Of a stretch of DNA of 37,045 nt, positions 1 through 34,600 are shown in pieces. The stretch's first letter is position 1, and every line of letters begins with the position of its first letter. The notes under the pieces are model-generated. The model did not search any database and had not been told where the DNA came from. It was given only the letters and a program-made list of their open reading frames with translations. This DNA is from Alphaproteobacteria bacterium (GTDB lineage: Bacteria > Pseudomonadota > Alphaproteobacteria > ATCC43930 > CGMCC-115725). The position numbers were made by a program, and so were the translations under genes. Where the stretch lies: contig JAJPHB010000160.1 in NCBI GenBank assembly GCA_021325525.1, positions 1 to 37,045 on the forward strand, written 5' to 3'.

Positions 1-578
1 AGATTGTCGAACTTCGACTTGGTGACGCTGTCATTGACGTTGATGGCCGGCACTTTGAGCTCGCCGCGCTTCATCATCTCGTAGAGCCGGTGGACGCCCG
101 TCGTCGTCTCCTCCGAGATGCCGCGCACCTGCGCCAGCAGGTCCGGATATTTGTCGTGCAGAACCTTGGTCGCATCGCCGCCGTCGTCGAGCACCATGTT
201 CGGAGTCCAGCCGTCCGGTCCCCGGAGGCACTGCTCGATGCACCATTCGTATTCCTCCTCGCTCTCGCCCTTCCAGGCGAAGACGGGGATGCCGCGCGCC
301 GCGATCGCCGCCGCGGCATGGTCCTGGGTCGAGAAGATGTTGCACGAACACCAGCGCAGGCTGGCGCCGAGATAGGCCAGCGTCTCGATGAGGACCGCGG
401 TCTGGATCGTCATGTGGAGGCAGCCGATGATGCGCGCCCCTTTGAGCGGCTTCGCCGTGCCGTATTCGCGGCGCAGCGCCATGAGGCCCGGCATCTCGGT
501 CTCGGCGATGGCGATCTCCTTGCGCCCCCAATCGGCGAGGGAGATGTCGGCGACCTTGTAATCGGTAAAGGTGGTCAT
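1..578 (-). CDS. ahcY: Adenosylhomocysteinase, N-terminal part (cut by window edge)
   Basis: Hydrolyses S-adenosylhomocysteine to adenosine and homocysteine in the cytosol, relieving product inhibition of methyltransferases and feeding the methionine cycle. About 192 residues are present; the C-terminal NAD-binding part lies beyond the left edge. Visible family features are the start [19 protein letters not shown], the substrate-domain stretch with [15 protein letters not shown], the region [18 protein letters not shown], and [11 protein letters not shown]. The ATG at 578 is chosen because the protein begins there as in the family and AGGAAC lies just upstream. In rhizobia ahcY commonly sits downstream of the chvIG-hprK-EIIA-HPr genes, as it does here, but here a hemerythrin gene on the other strand separates it and it has its own promoter candidate. 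Identification is firm. Confidence 0.96.
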
Positions 579-793: not shown

Positions 794-1231
794 ATGAAAG
801 TCTGGGACCTGCTGAAGCACGACCACCGCGAGGTCGAGCAGATCTTCTCGCAGCTCGACAAGACGCAGGACAAGCAGCAGCAAGAAAAGCTGTTCGGCAA
901 GCTGAAGCACGAGCTCCAGCTCCACACGAAAGTCGAGGAGACGCATTTCTATCCGGCCCTCAAATCCGCCGACGAGACCAAGGACATGGTCGGCGAGGCG
1001 CTCGAGGAGCATGGCGAGGTCAAGAAGATGCTGACGCGGCTCTCCTCGCTCGCCGTCGGCGGCGACACCTGGCGCGAGGGCATCAAGGAGCTGCAGAGCA
1101 GCGTCGAGCACCATGTCGAGGAAGAGGAGAACGAGATCTTCCCGGCGGCGCAGAAGGCGCTCGACGAAGCTCAGGTCGAGGAAATCGGCCGCAAGATCGA
1201 GCAGGAGAAGCAGGCCGCAAAGGCGGGTTGA
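794..1231 (+). CDS. Hemerythrin HHE-domain protein
   Basis: A 145-residue all-helical protein of the hemerythrin HHE cation-binding family, expected to hold a non-haem diiron site and to bind oxygen, NO or iron in the cytosol. Candidate ligands are visible in the right order: H11, H44 and E48, H51 ([11 protein letters not shown]), H73 (EEHGEV), and H106/H107 with E110-E112 ([13 protein letters not shown]). The length fits a single domain, with a lysine- and glutamate-rich tail after residue 125. GGAGAGG lies 4-10 bases before the ATG. The gene is the only plus-strand gene in the left third; it diverges from ahcY and converges on the broken hicBA-like pair. The exact role (oxygen sensing, NO repair or iron storage) cannot be told from sequence. 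Confidence 0.92.
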
Positions 1232-1260: not shown

Positions 1261-1289
1261 GGCCCGATCTCTACTCGAAGAGATCGGCC
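1261..1289. terminator. Hairpin between convergent genes
   Basis: GGC(C)CGATCTCT pairs with AGAGATCGGCC around a 6-base loop, an 11-bp stem with one bulged C. It lies 30 bases past the hemerythrin stop and covers the last codons of the convergent hicA-like gene. There is no T-run on either side, so a role as terminator is only inferred. Confidence 0.35.
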
Positions 1290-1512
1290 GCCAGCTCGTC
1301 GCGGCCCATCCCGAAGCGATCGGCTACGGAGGTGAGAATGGCGGCCAGCGTCCCCAGCTTGATCGGCCGGTGGTCTGGTATCGTGACGTGGTGCTCGCCT
1401 TTTGCTCCGTTGTCAGCCTGATATGACTGCCGCTTTGGCGAGTGATCCGGTATCCCAAATTGGCCAGCAGACTGGCGAGGTCTCGCCCGCTTAGGTCGCG
1501 CGGCAATCTCAT
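1271..1512 (-). pseudogene. HicA-family toxin-like gene with a -1 frameshift
   Basis: HicA toxins are small double-stranded-RNA-binding-fold mRNA interferases. The N-terminal half reads MRLPRDLSGRDLASLLANLG, then YRITRQSGSHIRLTTEQK, with the catalytic-type histidine in GSHIRL. The frame then runs into unrelated residues. Reading one base back at CAA-AAG-GCG restores KGEHHVTIPDHRPIKLGTL and continues to LAADLFE and a TAG at 1271-1273. That gives an 80-residue product with the usual HicA ending. The interval is 242 bases, not a multiple of three. The start is an ATG overlapping the TGA of the upstream hicB-like gene (ATGA), the normal coupling of such pairs. It could be a decayed gene, a one-base sequence error, or a recoded gene; the break lies at an A-AAG tetramer. 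Confidence 0.75.
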
Positions 1513-1714
1513 GCCGCGATGACTTCGTCGCGGACGATATGGAGGCGGATCAGTTTCGGTCCCGAACCGGGTTCGAAATGGCACTGCACGGCGTCGCGTA
1601 CCTGCGATCGCAGCGCTTCCAGCGTCTCCGCCTCGGTGAAGATCGCCTCTCCGAGCGCGCGGGCGACGTACCCCCCTCCGCCGCCTCCTCGACCAGAAAA
1701 ATCAGCTCGCTCAT
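1509..1714 (-). pseudogene. HicB-family antitoxin-like gene with a -1 frameshift
   Basis: HicB/UPF0150 proteins carry a partial RNase-H-like fold and neutralise HicA; short members like this one are often misnamed as a 2-oxoisovalerate dehydrogenase subunit. The protein begins MSELIFLVEEAAEGG and then leaves frame at a run of six G. Moving one base back gives GGYVARALGEAIFTEAETLE and continues through LRSQVRDAVQCHFEPGSG to IRLHIVRDEVIAA and a TGA overlapping the hicA-like start. The restored product would be 68 residues, the family's normal size. The interval is 206 bases, not a multiple of three. GAGGAG precedes the ATG at 1714. The pair follows ptsI by 84 bases. Decay, error and recoding are all possible. 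Confidence 0.75.
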
Positions 1715-1798: not shown

Positions 1799-3595
1799 CT
1801 ACGCCAAGGTGTTGAAATCGTCGAGAAGAGCCGCGATTCGCCCCGAATCCCACTGGTCCATGATGGCGCGGGCGCGCCGGGTCGCGGCGATCGTGTCGAG
1901 CGAGCGGATGCGGCGCTTGACGCGAGGAATGTTGCTCGGCGCCATCGACAGCTCGCGGACGCCGAGGCCGATGAGCAGTGCCGAAAAGCGCGGATCGCCG
2001 CCCATCTCGCCGCAGACGCTGATGGGGATGCGGGCGCGGATCGCCGCTTCGATCGCGAACTGGATGAGGCGCAGCACGGCTGGATGCAGCGGATCGTAAA
2101 GATGCGCCACCTGCTCGTCGCCGCGGTCGATCGCCAGCGTGTACTGGATGAGGTCGTTGGTGCCGAGGGCGAAGAAATCGGCCTCGGCCGCCAGCGCATC
2201 GGCAGCAAGCGCCGCGCCCGGCACCTCGATCATGACGCCGAGCGGCGGCAGCGGATCGGCGATGGCGACGCCGCGCCGCTTGAGGCGCCGCGCCACCTGC
2301 GCCAGGGCCTCGCGCACGCGCCGCAGCTCTGAAAGCGTGCAGATCATCGGCAGGAGGATGCGCAGGGGGCCGTGCGCGGCCGCCCGCAGCATGGCCGCGA
2401 GCTGGGTGTCGAGGAGCTTGCGCTCCTTCAGCGAAAGGCGGATAGCGCGCAGCCCGAGCGCGGGATTGGCGCCGGGCGCGCCGCTCACCTCGGCCAGCGA
2501 TTCGGCGATCTTGTCGCCGCCGATATCGAGCGTCCTCAGGGTGACGGGGCGGCCGTTCATGCCGACGAGAAGGTCGCGGTAGGTCGCGTATTGCTCGTCC
2601 TCGCCCGGCAGATCGGCGCGGTTCATGTAGAGGAACTCGGTGCGCACGAGCCCGAGCCCGGCGGCCCCGGCGGCCAGCGCCTGATCGAGCTCGCGCGGCA
2701 GTTCGAGATTGGCCTGCAGGCCGATCTCGACGCCGTCGCGCGTCAGCGCCGGCAGGCGCCGCAGCTTGTCCAGCTGCCGGCGCTCGCGCTGGAGCTCCTC
2801 CCGGCGCGACCGGTACTCCGCGATCGTCGCCGCAGAGGGATTGATGATGACCGTCCCGGCCGTACCGTCGACGATGGCGGTCTCCCGCCGCTCCGCATGC
2901 GCGAGCAGCCCGACGGCGCCGACGACCGCGGGCAAGGCGAGCGCCCGCGCCATGATGGCGGTATGGCTTTCGGCGCCGCCGAGCGCCGTGGCGAAGCCGG
3001 CGACGCGGCGCGGGTCCATGAGGGCAATGTCCGCCGGTGTCAGCTCCTCGGCGAGGATGACCGTTCCCTCCCTCAACATGGCGAAGCCCTCGAAGGGCTT
3101 CTTGACGAGGTTGCGCATCAGGCGCGCGCCGACGACGCGGATATCGTCGAACCGCGCCGCGAGATAAGCATCGCGCATCCCGGCGAAGCGTTCGCCGATC
3201 TCGGCGATCTCCGCCTGCACCGCCGCCTCGGCGTTGCGGCGCTCCTCGGCGATCCGCCGGTCGACGCCGCGGATCAGGCGCGAGCTCGACAGCATCGCGA
3301 GGTGCGCATCGAGCAGATAGCCCATTTCCTCGGCCGCCGCGTCGGGCAGGTTCTGCGCCTTGGTCTTAAGCTTGCGGATCTGCTTGATCGAGACGGCGAC
3401 GGCCGCGGCGAAGCGGGCGCGCTCGGCCTCGATCTCTTCGGGCGCTATGCGGTAATCGGGAACCGCCGCGTCGAAATGGTCGCTGACATGGATGGGGCCG
3501 ATGGCGATCCCGGGAGAGACGGCAAGGCCGTGAAAGCTGCGCTCCTCGACAGCGCGCGGTCCGGGCTTGTCGAGCGGCGGCACGTCATTCCTCAT
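1799..3595 (-). CDS. ptsI: PTS enzyme I, phosphoenolpyruvate-protein phosphotransferase
   Basis: Takes phosphate from phosphoenolpyruvate onto a histidine and passes it to HPr. The 598 residues match classical enzyme I without the GAF domain of PtsP. Domain order: HPr-binding and phospho-histidine domain up to about residue 240 with H211 in GGAESHTAIMAR, then the PEP-binding barrel with GLVRTEFLYM, LRTLDIGGDK, GTNDLIQY and the catalytic C528 in SVCGEMGGDP. No sugar-specific EIIB/EIIC is nearby, so the chain looks regulatory. The start is uncertain: ATG at 3595 overlaps ptsH by 11 bases, while a GTG at 3583 has AGGAA upstream and overlaps nothing. It is last of five coupled PTS genes. Confidence 0.95.
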   Translation of the reverse strand: MRNDVPPLDKPGPRAVEERSFHGLAVSPGIAIGPIHVSDHFDAAVPDYRIAPEEIEAERARFAAAVAVSIKQIRKLKTKAQNLPDAAAEEMGYLLDAHLAMLSSSRLIRGVDRRIAEERRNAEAAVQAEIAEIGERFAGMRDAYLAARFDDIRVVGARLMRNLVKKPFEGFAMLREGTVILAEELTPADIALMDPRRVAGFATALGGAESHTAIMARALALPAVVGAVGLLAHAERRETAIVDGTAGTVIINPSAATIAEYRSRREELQRERRQLDKLRRLPALTRDGVEIGLQANLELPRELDQALAAGAAGLGLVRTEFLYMNRADLPGEDEQYATYRDLLVGMNGRPVTLRTLDIGGDKIAESLAEVSGAPGANPALGLRAIRLSLKERKLLDTQLAAMLRAAAHGPLRILLPMICTLSELRRVREALAQVARRLKRRGVAIADPLPPLGVMIEVPGAALAADALAAEADFFALGTNDLIQYTLAIDRGDEQVAHLYDPLHPAVLRLIQFAIEAAIRARIPISVCGEMGGDPRFSALLIGLGVRELSMAPSNIPRVKRRIRSLDTIAATRRARAIMDQWDSGRIAALLDDFNTLA

Positions 3596-3878
3596 CGAAG
3601 CCGCAGCTGACGAGGTCGGCGAGCGCGGCGAGCGCCCGCTCGGCATCGGGACCGGTGCCGCGCAGCTCGACCGTGGTACCGGGCCCCGCGGCCAGCATCA
3701 TGAGCCCCATGATGGAACGCCCCGAGACGGCGGTGCCGTTCTTCGCCACCGTGATATCGGCATCGAACTGATCGGCGAGCTTGACGAATCGCGCCGCCGC
3801 CCGCGCATGGAGGCCGCGCCGGTTGCAGATGGTGACGACACGCCGGAGCGGCGCGACGCCCTCGGCGGAGGCGTCCAT
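3585..3878 (-). CDS. ptsH: HPr phosphocarrier protein
   Basis: A 97-residue HPr that carries phosphate from enzyme I to EIIA. The phosphorylatable histidine is H24 in NRRGLHARAAARFVKLA, and the regulatory serine that HprK would phosphorylate is S55 in SGRSIMGLMML, so both input sites are present. It lies between the Man-type EIIA gene (21-base gap) and ptsI (short overlap). Together with hprK in the same operon this predicts two-way control: PEP-dependent at H24 and ATP-dependent at S55. The start ATG at 3878 follows the EIIA gene with a GGCGAG-type ribosome site. Confidence 0.95.
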   Translation of the reverse strand: MDASAEGVAPLRRVVTICNRRGLHARAAARFVKLADQFDADITVAKNGTAVSGRSIMGLMMLAAGPGTTVELRGTGPDAERALAALADLVSCGFDEE

Positions 3879-24160: not shown

Positions 24161-24391
24161 ATGACCGATCTGCTCATACGTGATCTCGGTGCCGAGCTCA
24201 TTGAAAGGCTGAAGCTGCGCGCAAAAAATCACGGCCGGTCATTGCAAGCCGAGGTGAAGGCGATCCTGCAAAACAACGTCCCGCTGTCGATGGCCGAGGC
24301 GCGCGCGCAGGTCGAGCGCATTCGCGCCGAATTCACGGGCAAGAAATTCTCGGACAGTGCCGAGCTGATCCGCGAAGATCGCGAGCGATGA
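24161..24391 (+). CDS. FitA/VapB-type ribbon-helix-helix antitoxin
   Basis: 76-residue antitoxin: the N-terminal ribbon-helix-helix MTDLLIRDLGAELIERLKLRA, then NHGRSLQAEVKAILQ, typical of FitA-like proteins that bind the operator as dimers, and a C-terminal segment (about 45-76) that would wrap the toxin. It overlaps vapC by four bases (ATGA). AGGAGG precedes the ATG. The pair stands alone between a GST gene and fzlA, consistent with acquisition as a small module. Confidence 0.92.
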   Translation: MTDLLIRDLGAELIERLKLRAKNHGRSLQAEVKAILQNNVPLSMAEARAQVERIRAEFTGKKFSDSAELIREDRER

Positions 24392-24825
24392 CGCGGTTCG
24401 TCGTCGATGCCAGTGTCGCGGTCAAGTGGTTCCTGGACGAGAATGAATCGGCAGAGGCACGGCTCCTCCTTGCGAGGGATTATCGGCTGACTGCACCGGA
24501 CCTTGTCTTCGCGGAGGCTGCGAATATTCTTTGGAAGCGTGTGCGCCGGAAGGAAATGACGCCGACGCAGGCGCAATCCGTGCAGCTCGGGCTGTTCGAT
24601 ATCCCGATCGACGTCTTTGAAAGCGCGGCTCTGACCTCGGATGCGCTGCGGCTCGCCGCCGAAACGAATGCGACCGTATATGATTGCATGTATCTGGCCC
24701 TCGCCCTTCGGAACGGGTTTCTTCTGGTAACAGCCGACCAGCGGCTCTGCCGCAGGCTGGCGGACGGACCTTATGGCGCACCCGTCGTTCCGCTCGCCGA
24801 ATTCAGGCCCCCGGGCCTGCATTGA
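24388..24825 (+). CDS. VapC-family PIN-domain toxin
   Basis: 145-residue PIN-domain endoribonuclease, probably cutting tRNA or rRNA when free of its antitoxin. The four acidic residues are in place: D7 (VVDASVAVKWF), E43 (LVFAEAANILWK), D99 (ATVYDCMYLALA) and D117 (LLVTADQRL), so it looks catalytically intact. Only 9 bases separate it from fzlA, so toxin and cell-division gene may be on one transcript. Confidence 0.94.
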   Translation: MTRFVVDASVAVKWFLDENESAEARLLLARDYRLTAPDLVFAEAANILWKRVRRKEMTPTQAQSVQLGLFDIPIDVFESAALTSDALRLAAETNATVYDCMYLALALRNGFLLVTADQRLCRRLADGPYGAPVVPLAEFRPPGLH

Positions 24826-29493: not shown

Positions 29494-30318
29494 TCATTCC
29501 GGCTTGGCCGGCGCCTTTTTCTTCCCCGCGGGCGCCGCCTTCCCGCTTGCTCCCGCCTCGAGATGCGCGAGATTGTCCTTAGCCGCGGCCCCCGCCGGCG
29601 TGCCCGGAGCGAGCGCGGCGAGGCGCTGCCAGTCCTGCCGCGCGCCCGCTTCATCGCCTGATAGGCGGCGGAGATTGCCGCGCTCCAGCAGCGCGTCGGG
29701 ATCGTCGGGGGCGCGGCGGAGCGCCGCCTCGACGTCGCGGAGCGCCGGCTCGAGCTGACCCGTCGCGCGATAGGCCGAGGCGCGGAAGACGAGGGCATCG
29801 ATCCGCTCCGGATCGCGCTTCAGCGCATGATCGAGATCGGCGATCGCCTCGCGATAGCGCTTCTCGGCGCCGTAGATCTCGGCGCGGTCGGTGAGGAGGC
29901 CCGGATCCTCGGGCGCCGCCGCCAGCGCCGCAGTGAGCGCGCTTTCCGCACGCGCCATGTCGCCGGCGAGAAGCCAGGCCTGGCCCGCCTGGTCGAGCAC
30001 CTCGGCGCGGAGCGCTGCCGGCGCCTTCGCCATCTCGGCCGCCAGCTTGTCGAGGCGCTTGCCCGCCTCGCTGTAGCGATGCAAGCCGATGAGTGCCACC
30101 GCGGCGCAATGTTCCGCCGGATGGCCGCCGCCGGTGCCGCGCCAGGCGAGCGCGCTGTCCCAGGCAGCCGCGGGATCGCGCCGCGCCTCCGCCATGCAGC
30201 GCGCATAATGCTCGGCCTCGACGCTCGGCAAATGCTGCGCGTGGGCGGCGGGCGCCGGCACGAGCAGCAGGAGAGCGACGGGAATGATCCCCGCCAATCC
30301 CAATGCTTTGGCGCTCAT
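29494..30318 (-). CDS. Periplasmic TPR protein of the RND operon
   Basis: 274 residues: a signal peptide (about 1-27, ending APAAHAQ), then TPR-like helical repeats from about 75 to 245 (for example AEVLDQAGQAWLLAGDMARAESAL, AEIYGAEKRYREAIADLDHAL, RASAYRATGQLEPALRDVEAAL, in separate repeats), and a lysine/alanine/proline-rich tail. No enzyme motif. Its ATG overlaps the stop of the RND permease (ATGA), so it is made with the pump. It may act as a periplasmic scaffold; no function is claimed. Confidence 0.8.
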   Translation of the reverse strand: MSAKALGLAGIIPVALLLLVPAPAAHAQHLPSVEAEHYARCMAEARRDPAAAWDSALAWRGTGGGHPAEHCAAVALIGLHRYSEAGKRLDKLAAEMAKAPAALRAEVLDQAGQAWLLAGDMARAESALTAALAAAPEDPGLLTDRAEIYGAEKRYREAIADLDHALKRDPERIDALVFRASAYRATGQLEPALRDVEAALRRAPDDPDALLERGNLRRLSGDEAGARQDWQRLAALAPGTPAGAAAKDNLAHLEAGASGKAAPAGKKKAPAKPE

Positions 30319-33300
30319 TCGCCGGGCGTCGCCATGCCTTCGCCGGAAACGAGCGCCGCTGCCGCCTCGCTTTCCGCCGTGCCGCCGAAATAGGCGCGCG
30401 CCTTCTCGAGGTAGATATACACGACCGGCGTGATGTAGAGCGTCAGCAGCTGCGACACGCAGAGACCGCCGACGACGGCGAGACCGAGCGGGCGGCGCAG
30501 CTCCGAGCCGGCACCGAAGCCGATGGCGATCGGCAAGGTTCCCATGATCGCCGCCATGGTCGTCATCATGATCGGCCGGAAGCGCAGGAGGCAGGCCTCG
30601 TGGATGGCGGATTCGGCCGTCGTTCCCGGCACCTTCCGCCGCTCGATCGCGAAGTCGATCATCATGATCGCGTTCTTCTTGACGATGCCGATCAGCATGA
30701 CGATGCCGATGATGGCGATGACGCTCAAATCCTGATGGAAGAGCATCAGCGTCAGCACCGCGCCGAGACCGGCGGCAGGGAGGCCCGAGAGGATGGTGAT
30801 CGGGTGGATGAAGCTCTCGTAGAGAATGCCGAGCACCATGTAGATGACGAGCACCGCGGCGGTCAGCAGCAGGCCCTGGCCGCGCAGCGATTCCTGGAAG
30901 ACCTGCGCCGTGCCTTGGAATCCGGTCGAGATGGTGACCGGCAGGTTCATCGTGCGCTCGAGCTGCTGGATGCGCTGCACGGCATCGCCGAGCGAGACGC
31001 CCGGGGCGAGGTTGAAGGAGATGGTGACGGAAGGCAGCTGTCCCTGGTGGTTGACGGTGAGCGGCCCGACCGAGCGCCGCACCGTCGCGAAGGCGTCGAG
31101 CGGGATGGGCGGCGCGTTCGAGCCGGTCGTCGGGCGGACATAGATGCGCGACAGCGCCGCCGGGTCGCGCTGGAATTGGGGATCGGCTTCGAGAATGACC
31201 TCGTAGTCGTTGGAGGAGGTGTAGATGGTCGAGACCTGGCGCTCGCCGAAGGCGCTGAAGAGCGTGTTGCGGATCGCCTCGGCGGTGATGCCGAATTGCG
31301 AAGCCTTGTCTGTGTCGACGTCGATGACCGCCTTGAGATTGCCGATCTGGAGGTCCGAGGTCACGTCCTGGAAGCCCGGCAGCTCGGCGAGCTTTTTGTC
31401 CAGGATCGGCGCGTAGTGATAGAGCTCGGCGAGGTCGCCGTCCTGCAGCGTGTACTGGTAGAGGCTCTTCGCGAGGCGGCCGCCGACGCGGATATTCTGG
31501 ATCGGCTGGAAGAAGACCTTCATGCCCGGCACCGCGGCAACGGCCCGACGCAGCTGCTGGATGACGGTGAGGACATCGTCCTTGCGCGCGTCATGCGGCT
31601 TCAGGTTGATGAAGATGCGGCCCTGATTGGTCGACGGGCTGAAGCCGGTGGCGCCGACGCTGGAATTGACGACCTCGACATTGGGATTGGCCTTGATGAC
31701 GGCGGCCACTGCCTTCTGCCGCTCGCTCATCGCCGCGAAGGAGGTGTCCTCGGCCGCCTCGGTGATCGCGAAAATGAGGCCCGTATCCTCGATCGGGAAG
31801 AACCCCTTGGGGACGATGGCGAAGAGGTAGAGCGCCGCGCCCAGCGAGGCGAAGGTGACGAGGAGAGTGGCGGCGCGCCAGCGCAGCACGCCGCGCAGCG
31901 TATAGGAATAGGCTTTGAGCCAGGCGTCGAACGCCGCCTCCGAGGCGCGGTAGAAGACGTTGTGACGCTCGTCCCGGCCCCGCACCTTCAAGAGCCGCGA
32001 GCTCAGCATCGGCGTCAGCGTCAGCGAGACGAGGCCCGAGATCATGATGGTGAGGCTGATGGTGACGGCGAATTCGCGGAACAGCCGCCCGACGATGCCG
32101 CCCATGAAGAGCACCGGGATGAAGACGGCGCACAGCGAGACCGTGATCGAGAGAATGGTGAAGCCGATTTCGGCCGAGCCTTTGAGCGCCGCCTCCATGG
32201 GGCGCATGCCGCTCTCGATGTGGCGGACGATGTTCTCCAGCATGACGATGGCATCGTCGACGACGAAGCCGACCGAGAGCGTGATCGCGAGCAGCGAGAG
32301 ATTGTCGATCGAATAGCCGCAGGCATACATGCCGGCGAAGGTGCCGATGAGCGACACGGGCAGCGCCAGCGCCGGGATGATCGTCGCCGTGACATTGCGC
32401 AGGAAGACGAAGATGACGAGGACGACGAGCGCCACCGTGAGGCCGAGCGTGAACTGCACGTCGGCCACCGAGTTGCGGATCGACACGGAGCGGTCGTTGA
32501 CGACTTCGAGATCGACCGAGGGCGGAATCGCCGCGCGGAAGATCGGGATCAGCGCCTTGACGCTGTCGACGACATCGACGGTGTTGGCGTCGGGCTGGCG
32601 CAGCACGGCGAGCAGGATGTTGCGCTTGCCGTTGAACCAGCTCGCCACCTGGTCATTCTCGACGCTGTCGACCACCGACGCGACCTCGCCGAGGCGAATG
32701 GGCGCGCCGTTGCGGTAAGCGACGATGATTGGCCGGTACTTGGCCGCCTCGGACAGAGTCGTCGCGGCTTCGAGGGTGAAAGTCTGCGCCGGCCCGTTGA
32801 TGGTGCCGACCGGCGTATTGGAGTTGGCGGCGGCGACGGCGTTGCGCAGATCGTCGATGCTGAGACCCTTTGCCGCCAGCGCCTCGGGGTTGGCGCGGAC
32901 GCGCACGGCGAATTTCTGCGCGCCGTAGACCTGCACTTGCGCGACGCCCGGCAGTGTCGAGACGCGCTGCGCGATCAGCGTCTCGCCGTACTCGTCGACG
33001 GTCGAGAGCGGCAGGATGTCCGAGGCGAGCGTCAGGAACAGCACCGGGAAATCCGAGGGATTGAACTTGCGGAAGCTGGGCGGCGTCGTCATCTCGACGG
33101 GCAGCTTGCGCGCCGCCGTCGTCAGCGCCGATTGCACGTCGAGCGCCGCGCCGTCGATGTTGCGCCCGAGATTGAACTGCATGGTGATGGCGGTAACGCC
33201 CTCGCCGCTCACCGAGGTGATGGAGTCGATGCCGGAGATGGTCGAGAATTGCCGCTCCAGCACCCCGGCGACCGAGGAGGCCATGGTCTCGGCGCTGGCG

Positions 33301-33458
33301 CCGGGCAGGTCCGCGGTCACGACGATGGTCGGGAAATCGATTTGCGGCAGCGCGGCCACCGGCAGCAGGCGATAGCCGAAGAGGCCGAAGATGACGAACG
33401 CCATCATCAGCAGCGTCGTCATGACCGGCCGATGAATGCAGGTGATCGGCAGGTTCAT
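30315..33458 (-). CDS. RND efflux permease, HAE1/MdtB-MdtC-like
   Basis: 1047-residue proton-driven trimeric pump of the inner membrane. It starts with the typical MNLPITCIHRPVMTTLLMMA, has two large periplasmic loops, and the paired aspartates D401-D402 of helix 4 (SVGFVVDDAIVMLENIV) that carry protons. The later half has FFPIEDTGLIFAI and GIVMLIGIVKKNAIMMIDFA. Closest by eye to MdtB/MuxB-type multidrug pumps. Only one permease gene is present, whereas MdtBC uses two. It is flanked by ATGA overlaps with the adaptor gene and the TPR gene. Confidence 0.95.
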   Translation of the reverse strand: MNLPITCIHRPVMTTLLMMAFVIFGLFGYRLLPVAALPQIDFPTIVVTADLPGASAETMASSVAGVLERQFSTISGIDSITSVSGEGVTAITMQFNLGRNIDGAALDVQSALTTAARKLPVEMTTPPSFRKFNPSDFPVLFLTLASDILPLSTVDEYGETLIAQRVSTLPGVAQVQVYGAQKFAVRVRANPEALAAKGLSIDDLRNAVAAANSNTPVGTINGPAQTFTLEAATTLSEAAKYRPIIVAYRNGAPIRLGEVASVVDSVENDQVASWFNGKRNILLAVLRQPDANTVDVVDSVKALIPIFRAAIPPSVDLEVVNDRSVSIRNSVADVQFTLGLTVALVVLVIFVFLRNVTATIIPALALPVSLIGTFAGMYACGYSIDNLSLLAITLSVGFVVDDAIVMLENIVRHIESGMRPMEAALKGSAEIGFTILSITVSLCAVFIPVLFMGGIVGRLFREFAVTISLTIMISGLVSLTLTPMLSSRLLKVRGRDERHNVFYRASEAAFDAWLKAYSYTLRGVLRWRAATLLVTFASLGAALYLFAIVPKGFFPIEDTGLIFAITEAAEDTSFAAMSERQKAVAAVIKANPNVEVVNSSVGATGFSPSTNQGRIFINLKPHDARKDDVLTVIQQLRRAVAAVPGMKVFFQPIQNIRVGGRLAKSLYQYTLQDGDLAELYHYAPILDKKLAELPGFQDVTSDLQIGNLKAVIDVDTDKASQFGITAEAIRNTLFSAFGERQVSTIYTSSNDYEVILEADPQFQRDPAALSRIYVRPTTGSNAPPIPLDAFATVRRSVGPLTVNHQGQLPSVTISFNLAPGVSLGDAVQRIQQLERTMNLPVTISTGFQGTAQVFQESLRGQGLLLTAAVLVIYMVLGILYESFIHPITILSGLPAAGLGAVLTLMLFHQDLSVIAIIGIVMLIGIVKKNAIMMIDFAIERRKVPGTTAESAIHEACLLRFRPIMMTTMAAIMGTLPIAIGFGAGSELRRPLGLAVVGGLCVSQLLTLYITPVVYIYLEKARAYFGGTAESEAAAALVSGEGMATPGE

Positions 33459-34600
33459 GAGGTGGCGCCGCCGGGCTTCGCGTCCATCGGCCGCGGCTCG
33501 ACCAGCGTGCCCTTGGTGAGGCGGAGCTGGCCGTCGACGACGACCTCTTCACCCTCGCTGAGGCCGCTGGCGATGATGCTTTCGCCGCCGGCCGAGCGGT
33601 CGACCGTGACGGTGCGCGGCTCGACTGTCTTGTCCGGCTTGATGACGTAGACGTAGCTCGATTCCTGGCCGACCTGGACCGCCTGCGCCGGAACGACGAG
33701 GGCGTTCGGCTCGACGCGCAAGGTGAGCGCGGTGGTGACGAACTGGCCCGGCCACAGATCCTCCGCCGGGTTCTGGAAGAGCCCGCGCAGCATGACCGTG
33801 CCCGTGCTGGCATCGACGGCGTTGTCGATGAAGGCGAGCTTGCCGGACTCGGCCTTCGTTTGCCCCGGCGCCTGCGCCGTCACCGTGAGGTCGCGCTTGC
33901 CCATCTCGGCGCGGATCGCCGGCAGATCGCGCTGCGGCACGGAGAAGGCGACGTAGATCGGCCGCATCTGATTGACGGTGAGCAGCGCGATCGTATCCAC
34001 GGCCTTGACGGCGTTGCCCTCCTTGAGGGCGATGGCGCCGACGCGGCCGTCGATCGAGGAGGTGATCGTGTAATAGGAGAGGAGCGTCTTCAGATTGTCG
34101 AGCGCCGCCTCGTCGGCGCGCACCGCCGCTTCGAGCGCCGCGGCGTTGGTCTGCGCCGTATCGGCGATCGATTGCGAGGCGTAGTTCTTGGCCGCGAGCT
34201 CCGCCTGGCGCGCCGCCTCGCGCCGGGCATTGGCGAGCTGGGCGCGGTCCTTGGCGAGCTGCGCGTCCGCCTGGCGCACCTGCGCCTCGGCGGCGCGGCT
34301 GTCGAGCTGGAACAGCACGTCGCCGGCCTTTACCTCCTGCCCGTCATGGACGTTGACTTTGGCGATCTGGCCGTCGATGCGCGATTTGACGACGACGGTC
34401 GCCACCGGCTGCACCGTGCCGATGGCGTTGATGACGACGGGCATGGGCTTGCGCTTGACGGTGGCGGCGACCACGGGCACCGCTTGCGGCGGCGGCGCCG
34501 CGAGCGAGGCCGGCGCCGGCGTCAAATGGTAATCACGGTAGGCGATCCCGGCGCCGGCCAAGACGGCAAGAACGGCCACGGCTATCAGAACGCGCTTCAT
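33455..34600 (-). CDS. RND membrane-fusion (periplasmic adaptor) protein, MdtA-like
   Basis: 381-residue adaptor that links the RND pump to an outer-membrane channel. An N-terminal membrane anchor (about 3-20, MKRVLIAVAVLAVLAGAGIA) lacks a lipobox. The lipoyl/barrel-sandwich halves (VVVKSRIDGQIAKVNVHDGQ and YYTITSSIDGRVGAIALKEG) flank an alpha-helical hairpin at about 105-160, followed by a beta-barrel and a membrane-proximal domain. It is the first gene of the operon. A TATAAA (minus strand, 34675-34680) upstream could be its -10, without a good -35. The outer-membrane factor must be encoded elsewhere. Confidence 0.94.
   Translation of the reverse strand: MKRVLIAVAVLAVLAGAGIAYRDYHLTPAPASLAAPPPQAVPVVAATVKRKPMPVVINAIGTVQPVATVVVKSRIDGQIAKVNVHDGQEVKAGDVLFQLDSRAAEAQVRQADAQLAKDRAQLANARREAARQAELAAKNYASQSIADTAQTNAAALEAAVRADEAALDNLKTLLSYYTITSSIDGRVGAIALKEGNAVKAVDTIALLTVNQMRPIYVAFSVPQRDLPAIRAEMGKRDLTVTAQAPGQTKAESGKLAFIDNAVDASTGTVMLRGLFQNPAEDLWPGQFVTTALTLRVEPNALVVPAQAVQVGQESSYVYVIKPDKTVEPRTVTVDRSAGGESIIASGLSEGEEVVVDGQLRLTKGTLVEPRPMDAKPGGATS

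Follow-up and report, generated by a model that had tools for sequence, protein, structure and literature searches.

Why both genes of a small toxin-antitoxin pair should be split between two reading frames, each at a tract that looks slippery, is the question raised by the window, by which we mean the whole stretch of 37,045 nucleotides analysed here and which is itself an entire contig of a 4.79 Mb draft assembly. On the minus strand the sequence reads ptsI, then a hicB-like gene and then a hicA-like gene. A preliminary description had proposed that both genes are broken by the same -1 shift, and had offered decay, programmed recoding and sequence error as explanations.

The shift itself was borne out for each gene by profile matches in two frames. 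The hicB frame opens at an ATG (1714-1712) and stays open to a stop at 1550, and the residues past EEAAE that fit the family are encoded in another frame; a profile built from 73 relatives is divided likewise, its positions 1-15 matching in one frame and its positions 14-68 in the other. The departure lies, as described beforehand, at an in-frame G-GGG-GGT, a kind of run that also occurs in relatives whose hicB is read in one frame. Since the TGA that ends the continued frame (1511-1509) overlaps the hicA ATG in the arrangement ATGA, this continued frame is supported as the ancestral one. The hicA gene starts at 1512-1510 and remains in frame as far as CAAAAGG, which contains the A-AAG tetramer, with GEHHVTIP following in the -1 frame, again as first reported. 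The Pfam HicA_toxin model, with a cut-off of 27 bits, matched this gene above that value in the start frame and below it in the other, and the subfamily HicA profile also matched in two frames (positions 1-40 and 37-80). Each gene is thus one base short against the family frame, and both run on in the -1 frame without a second break. When the profiles were searched against the genome itself, the two hicA parts matched at E values of 1.1e-16 and 2.5e-13, which together with the larger hicB part (E 5e-28) excludes chance matches. As to the claim that the other genes of the window are intact, a codon-based frame-switch model marked only position 33463, where the genes 30315-33458 and 33455-34600 overlap by four bases, although this model does not mark hicBA either.

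Features of the hicBA locus and its neighbours; positions are those of the window
Feature	Position	Strand	Evidence
hicB 5' part, start frame, up to the six-G run; MSELIFLVEEAAEGG	1671..1714	-	Sequence; subfamily profile positions 1-15
hicB remainder, -1 frame, 55 residues, ending in the TGA that overlaps the hicA ATG (ATGA); GGYVARALGEAIFTEAETLEALRSQVRDAVQCHFEPGSGPKLIRLHIVRDEVIAA	1509..1676	-	Translated ORF; profile E 5e-28
Six-G run, frame change of hicB, in-frame G-GGG-GGT	1671..1676	-	Sequence; in-frame G-GGG-GGN run in 5/73 relatives
hicA 5' part, start frame, carrying the GSH motif	1393..1512	-	Pfam HicA_toxin 29.9 bits, positions 1-33
hicA 3' part, -1 frame (GEHHVTIP...); GEHHVTIPDHRPIKLGTLAAILTSVADRFGMGRDELAADLFE	1271..1399	-	Pfam HicA_toxin 15.4 bits (below cut-off), positions 32-54; subfamily profile E 1.1e-16, positions 37-80
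CAAAAGG, frame change of hicA	1398..1404	-	Sequence
ptsI, left neighbour; ahcY close behind in 4/13 relatives	1799..3646	-	Pfam domains, for which ptsI is the usual name
Hemerythrin-domain gene; no match after ptsI in the stretches of 13 relatives	794..1231	+	Pfam Hemerythrin 74.6 bits
ahcY-like gene, truncated at the contig end; bounds the insert on the right	3..578	-	Matches in relatives at 82-89% identity

The order of hicB before hicA, the ATGA overlap and the HicA profile match place the pair with type II HicAB systems (Pfam HicA_toxin, PF07927), in the hicB-first subfamily with a HicA of the MRLPRDLSG type. The HicA domain is present and a HicB partner is adjacent, as judged from the subfamily profile and the overlap. 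The start frame of hicA carries GSHIRL, in which GSH is invariant in 14 relatives, and we take the histidine to be the predicted active-site residue of the window HicA. No Pfam or NCBIfam model matched the hicB part, which was assigned through relatives that stand before hicA. The libraries lack this HicB altogether: three intact relatives stayed below every Pfam cut-off, and neither the window pieces nor one intact relative pair drew a HicAB model from NCBIfam. Over 55 residues, the larger HicB part shares 66% identity with a gene of a Geminocystis plasmid that stands beside an annotated HicA-family toxin; on that plasmid (NZ_AP014816.1) the subfamily hicB is annotated as '2-oxoisovalerate dehydrogenase', probably a propagated misannotation. 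In contrast to working HicAB systems, neither window gene has a continuous frame, and no full-length single-frame protein is encoded by either, each being split in two. Judged by its reading frames, hicBA in the window is a degenerate copy and not a working pair.

The surroundings of ptsI were compared in 13 relatives. The gene at 3..578, which we presume to be ahcY, lies 109-216 bases from ptsI in four of them and 1.8 kb away in one genus mate, and falls outside the stretch in the remaining eight; neither hicA, hicB nor the hemerythrin gene had a match in any of the 13 ptsI stretches (E ≤0.01). The hicA piece, searched at the protein level in 39 genomes of the family, was found in the window and in none of the 38 others, a DNA search for near relatives in 61 genomes gave nothing outside the window but short matching stretches of 28-56 bases, and hicB was found only in the window among a draw of 398 genomes. 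As to a phage origin, two viral loci were met. The codon score per codon was -0.28 for the start-frame part of hicA, 0.25 for the hicB part and 0.21 for the end of hicA, against a median of 0.42 for window genes, and G+C was 0.637 versus 0.705 for ptsI; the first part of hicA has foreign codon usage. Because the pair is absent in the relatives, it was probably acquired horizontally between ptsI and ahcY, an acquired module being the simplest reading. The hemerythrin-domain gene, likewise missing from the 13 ptsI stretches, may share the acquired insert with hicBA.

Apart from the single loss of frame, neither gene looks worn. At columns conserved in at least 85% of intact relatives, the window HicA differs at 3 of 34, where 62 intact relatives differ at 0-11 (median 1, with 16 of the 62 at three or more), and the window HicB differs at 1 of 28, so that both genes otherwise fall within the range of intact relatives. 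Both lesions are probably recent, to judge from this conservation.

We then asked how the subfamily fares elsewhere. In a first survey, genome contigs scanned with the start-frame (N-terminal) piece of hicA yielded 79 loci. By the subfamily profiles, hicA was intact at 63 and not intact at 16 (8 frameshifts, 4 stops and 4 partial genes), the count of intact genes being 63 of 79 by profile and 62 of 79 by length (by profile, L085 and L087 are intact and L054 is broken). By comparison, hicB was intact at 77 of the 79 loci, with one partial gene and one not found. Both genes were in frame at 62 loci. The lesions were of assorted kinds, comprising stops, frameshifts and truncations, and one locus (L025) appeared by eye to carry a tandem duplication. 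A class-level search of the alphaproteobacteria covered 385 genomes and gave a hicA-profile match (E ≤1e-6) in 12, one of them the genome of the window; at the five loci outside the window that belong to the subfamily by their HicB, hicA was broken in three and hicB full in all five, L182 and L184-L188 having been set aside as other HicAB subfamilies.

Since the first scan relied on the N-terminus of hicA, we performed a second survey anchored on HicB, in which a HicB alignment was searched in 395 genomes from the phylum of Nitrospira moscoviensis and met 83 places in 82 genomes. Downstream of these, hicA was intact at 52, carried stops at 6 and frameshifts at 2, was partial at 11 and went undetected at 12, where the last two calls can include a hicA too divergent for the profile. 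The hicB gene was full and open at 75 places, short at 6 and interrupted by a stop at 2, and all 8 short or stopped copies belonged to the 31 places where no intact hicA follows, none to the 52 where one does. No hicA was detectable beside any of the six short copies, which may be other families; setting them aside leaves two damaged hicB genes, and for this reason the survey supports, rather than proves, an order in which the toxin goes first. The two surveys overlap, at least 19 of the 82 HicB-anchored genomes having already been reached from the first survey and three of the six hicA stops being loci of that survey; an intermediate link between them took 40 of the 79 first-survey loci, and the 83 places exclude the loci of this intermediate survey that were absent from the HicB search, as well as L292-L294. 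Where an intact hicA is missing, hicB is still full and open at 23 places of 31, and such loci may prove useful for work on toxin loss and on solitary HicB.

Further random lesions in relatives, which had been named beforehand as a mark of decay, were therefore found, with 16 of 79 hicA genes damaged in one survey and 31 of 83 hicB places lacking an intact hicA in the other. The explanation that we favor, and to which we attach good though not overwhelming confidence, is that the window holds an acquired type II hicBA pair that has decayed, with hicA breaking before hicB. In this scheme the module would have entered the lineage between ptsI and ahcY, hicA would have lost its frame by one base, and hicB, then without purpose, would have lost its own in the G run, a natural site of slippage; neither gene should now give a working product beyond what spontaneous slippage allows. 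What the sequence displays directly is the loss of frame by a single base in each gene together with retention of most conserved family residues. The order of events is inferred from two considerations, namely that the cell would be poisoned if a needed antitoxin went first, and that damage to hicB in relatives occurs almost only beside a damaged or missing hicA. Against this account stand the failure to find a close relative that shares the locus and the rarity of doubly damaged copies in the first survey, where the only one (1/79) is a rearranged locus and where at another, L086, hicA is intact but no hicB was found. Taken alone the pair is an ordinary decayed accessory module, but within this HicAB subfamily the toxin has repeatedly been lost by single lesions while the antitoxin is mostly kept, as expected if toxin loss precedes. 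Passages of a Klebsiella survey describe orphan antitoxins, which lack a working toxin, as abundant (PMC7192599); our relatives, in which hicB often outlives hicA, resemble the situation in those passages, and the window differs from it in that its antitoxin is broken too.

Two lesions of the same sign and nothing more are the minimum of visible decay and would fit sequencing error or recoding as well. Under the first of these, the organism itself would carry one or both genes intact, and a draft in 172 contigs would have dropped single bases, a reading helped by the G run at one site and by the fact that both changes are one-base losses that leave most conserved residues in place. To gauge it we ran the frame-switch model, trained on the window genes, over 61 stretches that include the window and make up 1,045,150 bases, or about 22% of the genome. 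The model called 67 switches; for 43 of these the upstream frame ended within 75 bases, as happens where genes overlap, which leaves 24 as an upper bound on the frame losses visible to it. If losses fall this often, the probability that a second one lies within 270 bases of a given first is about 1 in 80. The model recovered 222 of 250 simulated losses when genes had at least 200 codons and 56 of 77 when they had 70-110, and since it missed hicBA itself, loss of frame in genes of foreign composition is undercounted. G/C runs of length 6, 7 and 8 were found 57, 7 and 1 times, respectively, inside switch-free genes, indicating that long runs are not generally misread. Across the sampled 22% or so of the genome, with genes of foreign composition missed, we found neither a raised rate of frame loss nor misread runs. 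General sequencing error is thus unlikely while a local error is possible, and as an account of this locus we give error a minor but real share of the probability.

The alternative that programmed -1 frameshifting limits the output of one or both proteins draws on the formal, in-frame G-GGG-GGT heptamer of hicB, a GAGGAGG stretch shortly upstream of it, and the openness of both genes across the shift. In form, hicB shares an X-XXY-YYZ heptamer with the programmed -1 frameshift sites of dnaX and insertion sequences, but neither a downstream structure nor conservation was found. RNA after the two sites folded no better than shuffled sequence (four stretches, two per site, z 0.57, 0.58, 0.81 and 1.49, in a test that leaves pseudoknots outside), and an in-frame G-GGG-GGN run stands at the same codons in 5 of the 73 relatives in which the motif was read, with their hicB open in one frame (GGC in three, GGA in one and GGG in one, with GGT in none). 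The purines upstream code for a conserved Glu-Glu, and slippery-looking G runs can come merely from coding Glu-Gly-Gly. At the hicA site there is only a tetramer, A-AAG being a weak slip motif. Furthermore, hicB needs no shift in 77 of 79 loci, so that the frame change is not conserved, and the hicA lesions of relatives include plain stops. Among the papers met in literature searches, PMC12297915 among them, no title or abstract opening reports programmed frameshifting of a toxin-antitoxin gene. We accordingly regard programmed frameshifting as very improbable. A phase-variable hicB, switched on and off by replication slippage in its pure six-G coding run and tolerated because hicA is also off, strikes us as scarcely credible: contingency tracts are usually longer than six bases, runs of this length occur 57 times in switch-free genes of the sampled part of the genome, and relatives use mixed glycine codons at the site. 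The wider proposal that the G run serves either recoding or phase switching, in which slippage during translation or replication would give low or variable HicB matched to limited HicA, would make the pair throttled rather than dead, and we hold it to be highly unlikely. Among the three options offered at the outset, decay is hence supported, programmed recoding finds no support and sequence error is unlikely.

Closer inspection of the lesions in relatives bore on a candidate hot spot at HicA codons 36-40, which had been suggested by the first survey and the alphaproteobacterial loci, where the GEHHxTIP core is free of lesions. For stops, codon makeup suffices as an explanation: eight distinct stops lie at about codons 14, 14, 26, 36, 36, 39, 47 and 47, and in 56 intact relatives positions 14, 26, 36 and 47 are often occupied by codons that a single change would turn into a stop. 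Over HicA positions 1-60, codons 36-40 hold 2.32 of 11.86 such near-stop codons, and codons 41-46 only 0.09. Several partial hicA matches break off at 36-39, a natural end point for local alignments, and the case for a hot spot of frameshifts and truncations at codons 36-40 is weakened.

Other toxin-antitoxin genes are present in this genome. The window carries a second pair on the plus strand with both frames open, consisting of a FitA-like ribbon-helix-helix antitoxin (24161-24385) and a PIN-domain toxin (24388-24825), the latter with the lowest codon score among the scored window genes. On another contig (C11, locus L003), a hicA preceded by a hicB-like gene was found at 1198-1476 and 1495-1704, again with open frames, its HicA_toxin match reaching 58.8 bits and its HicB-like match, at 20.7 bits, lying below cut-off.
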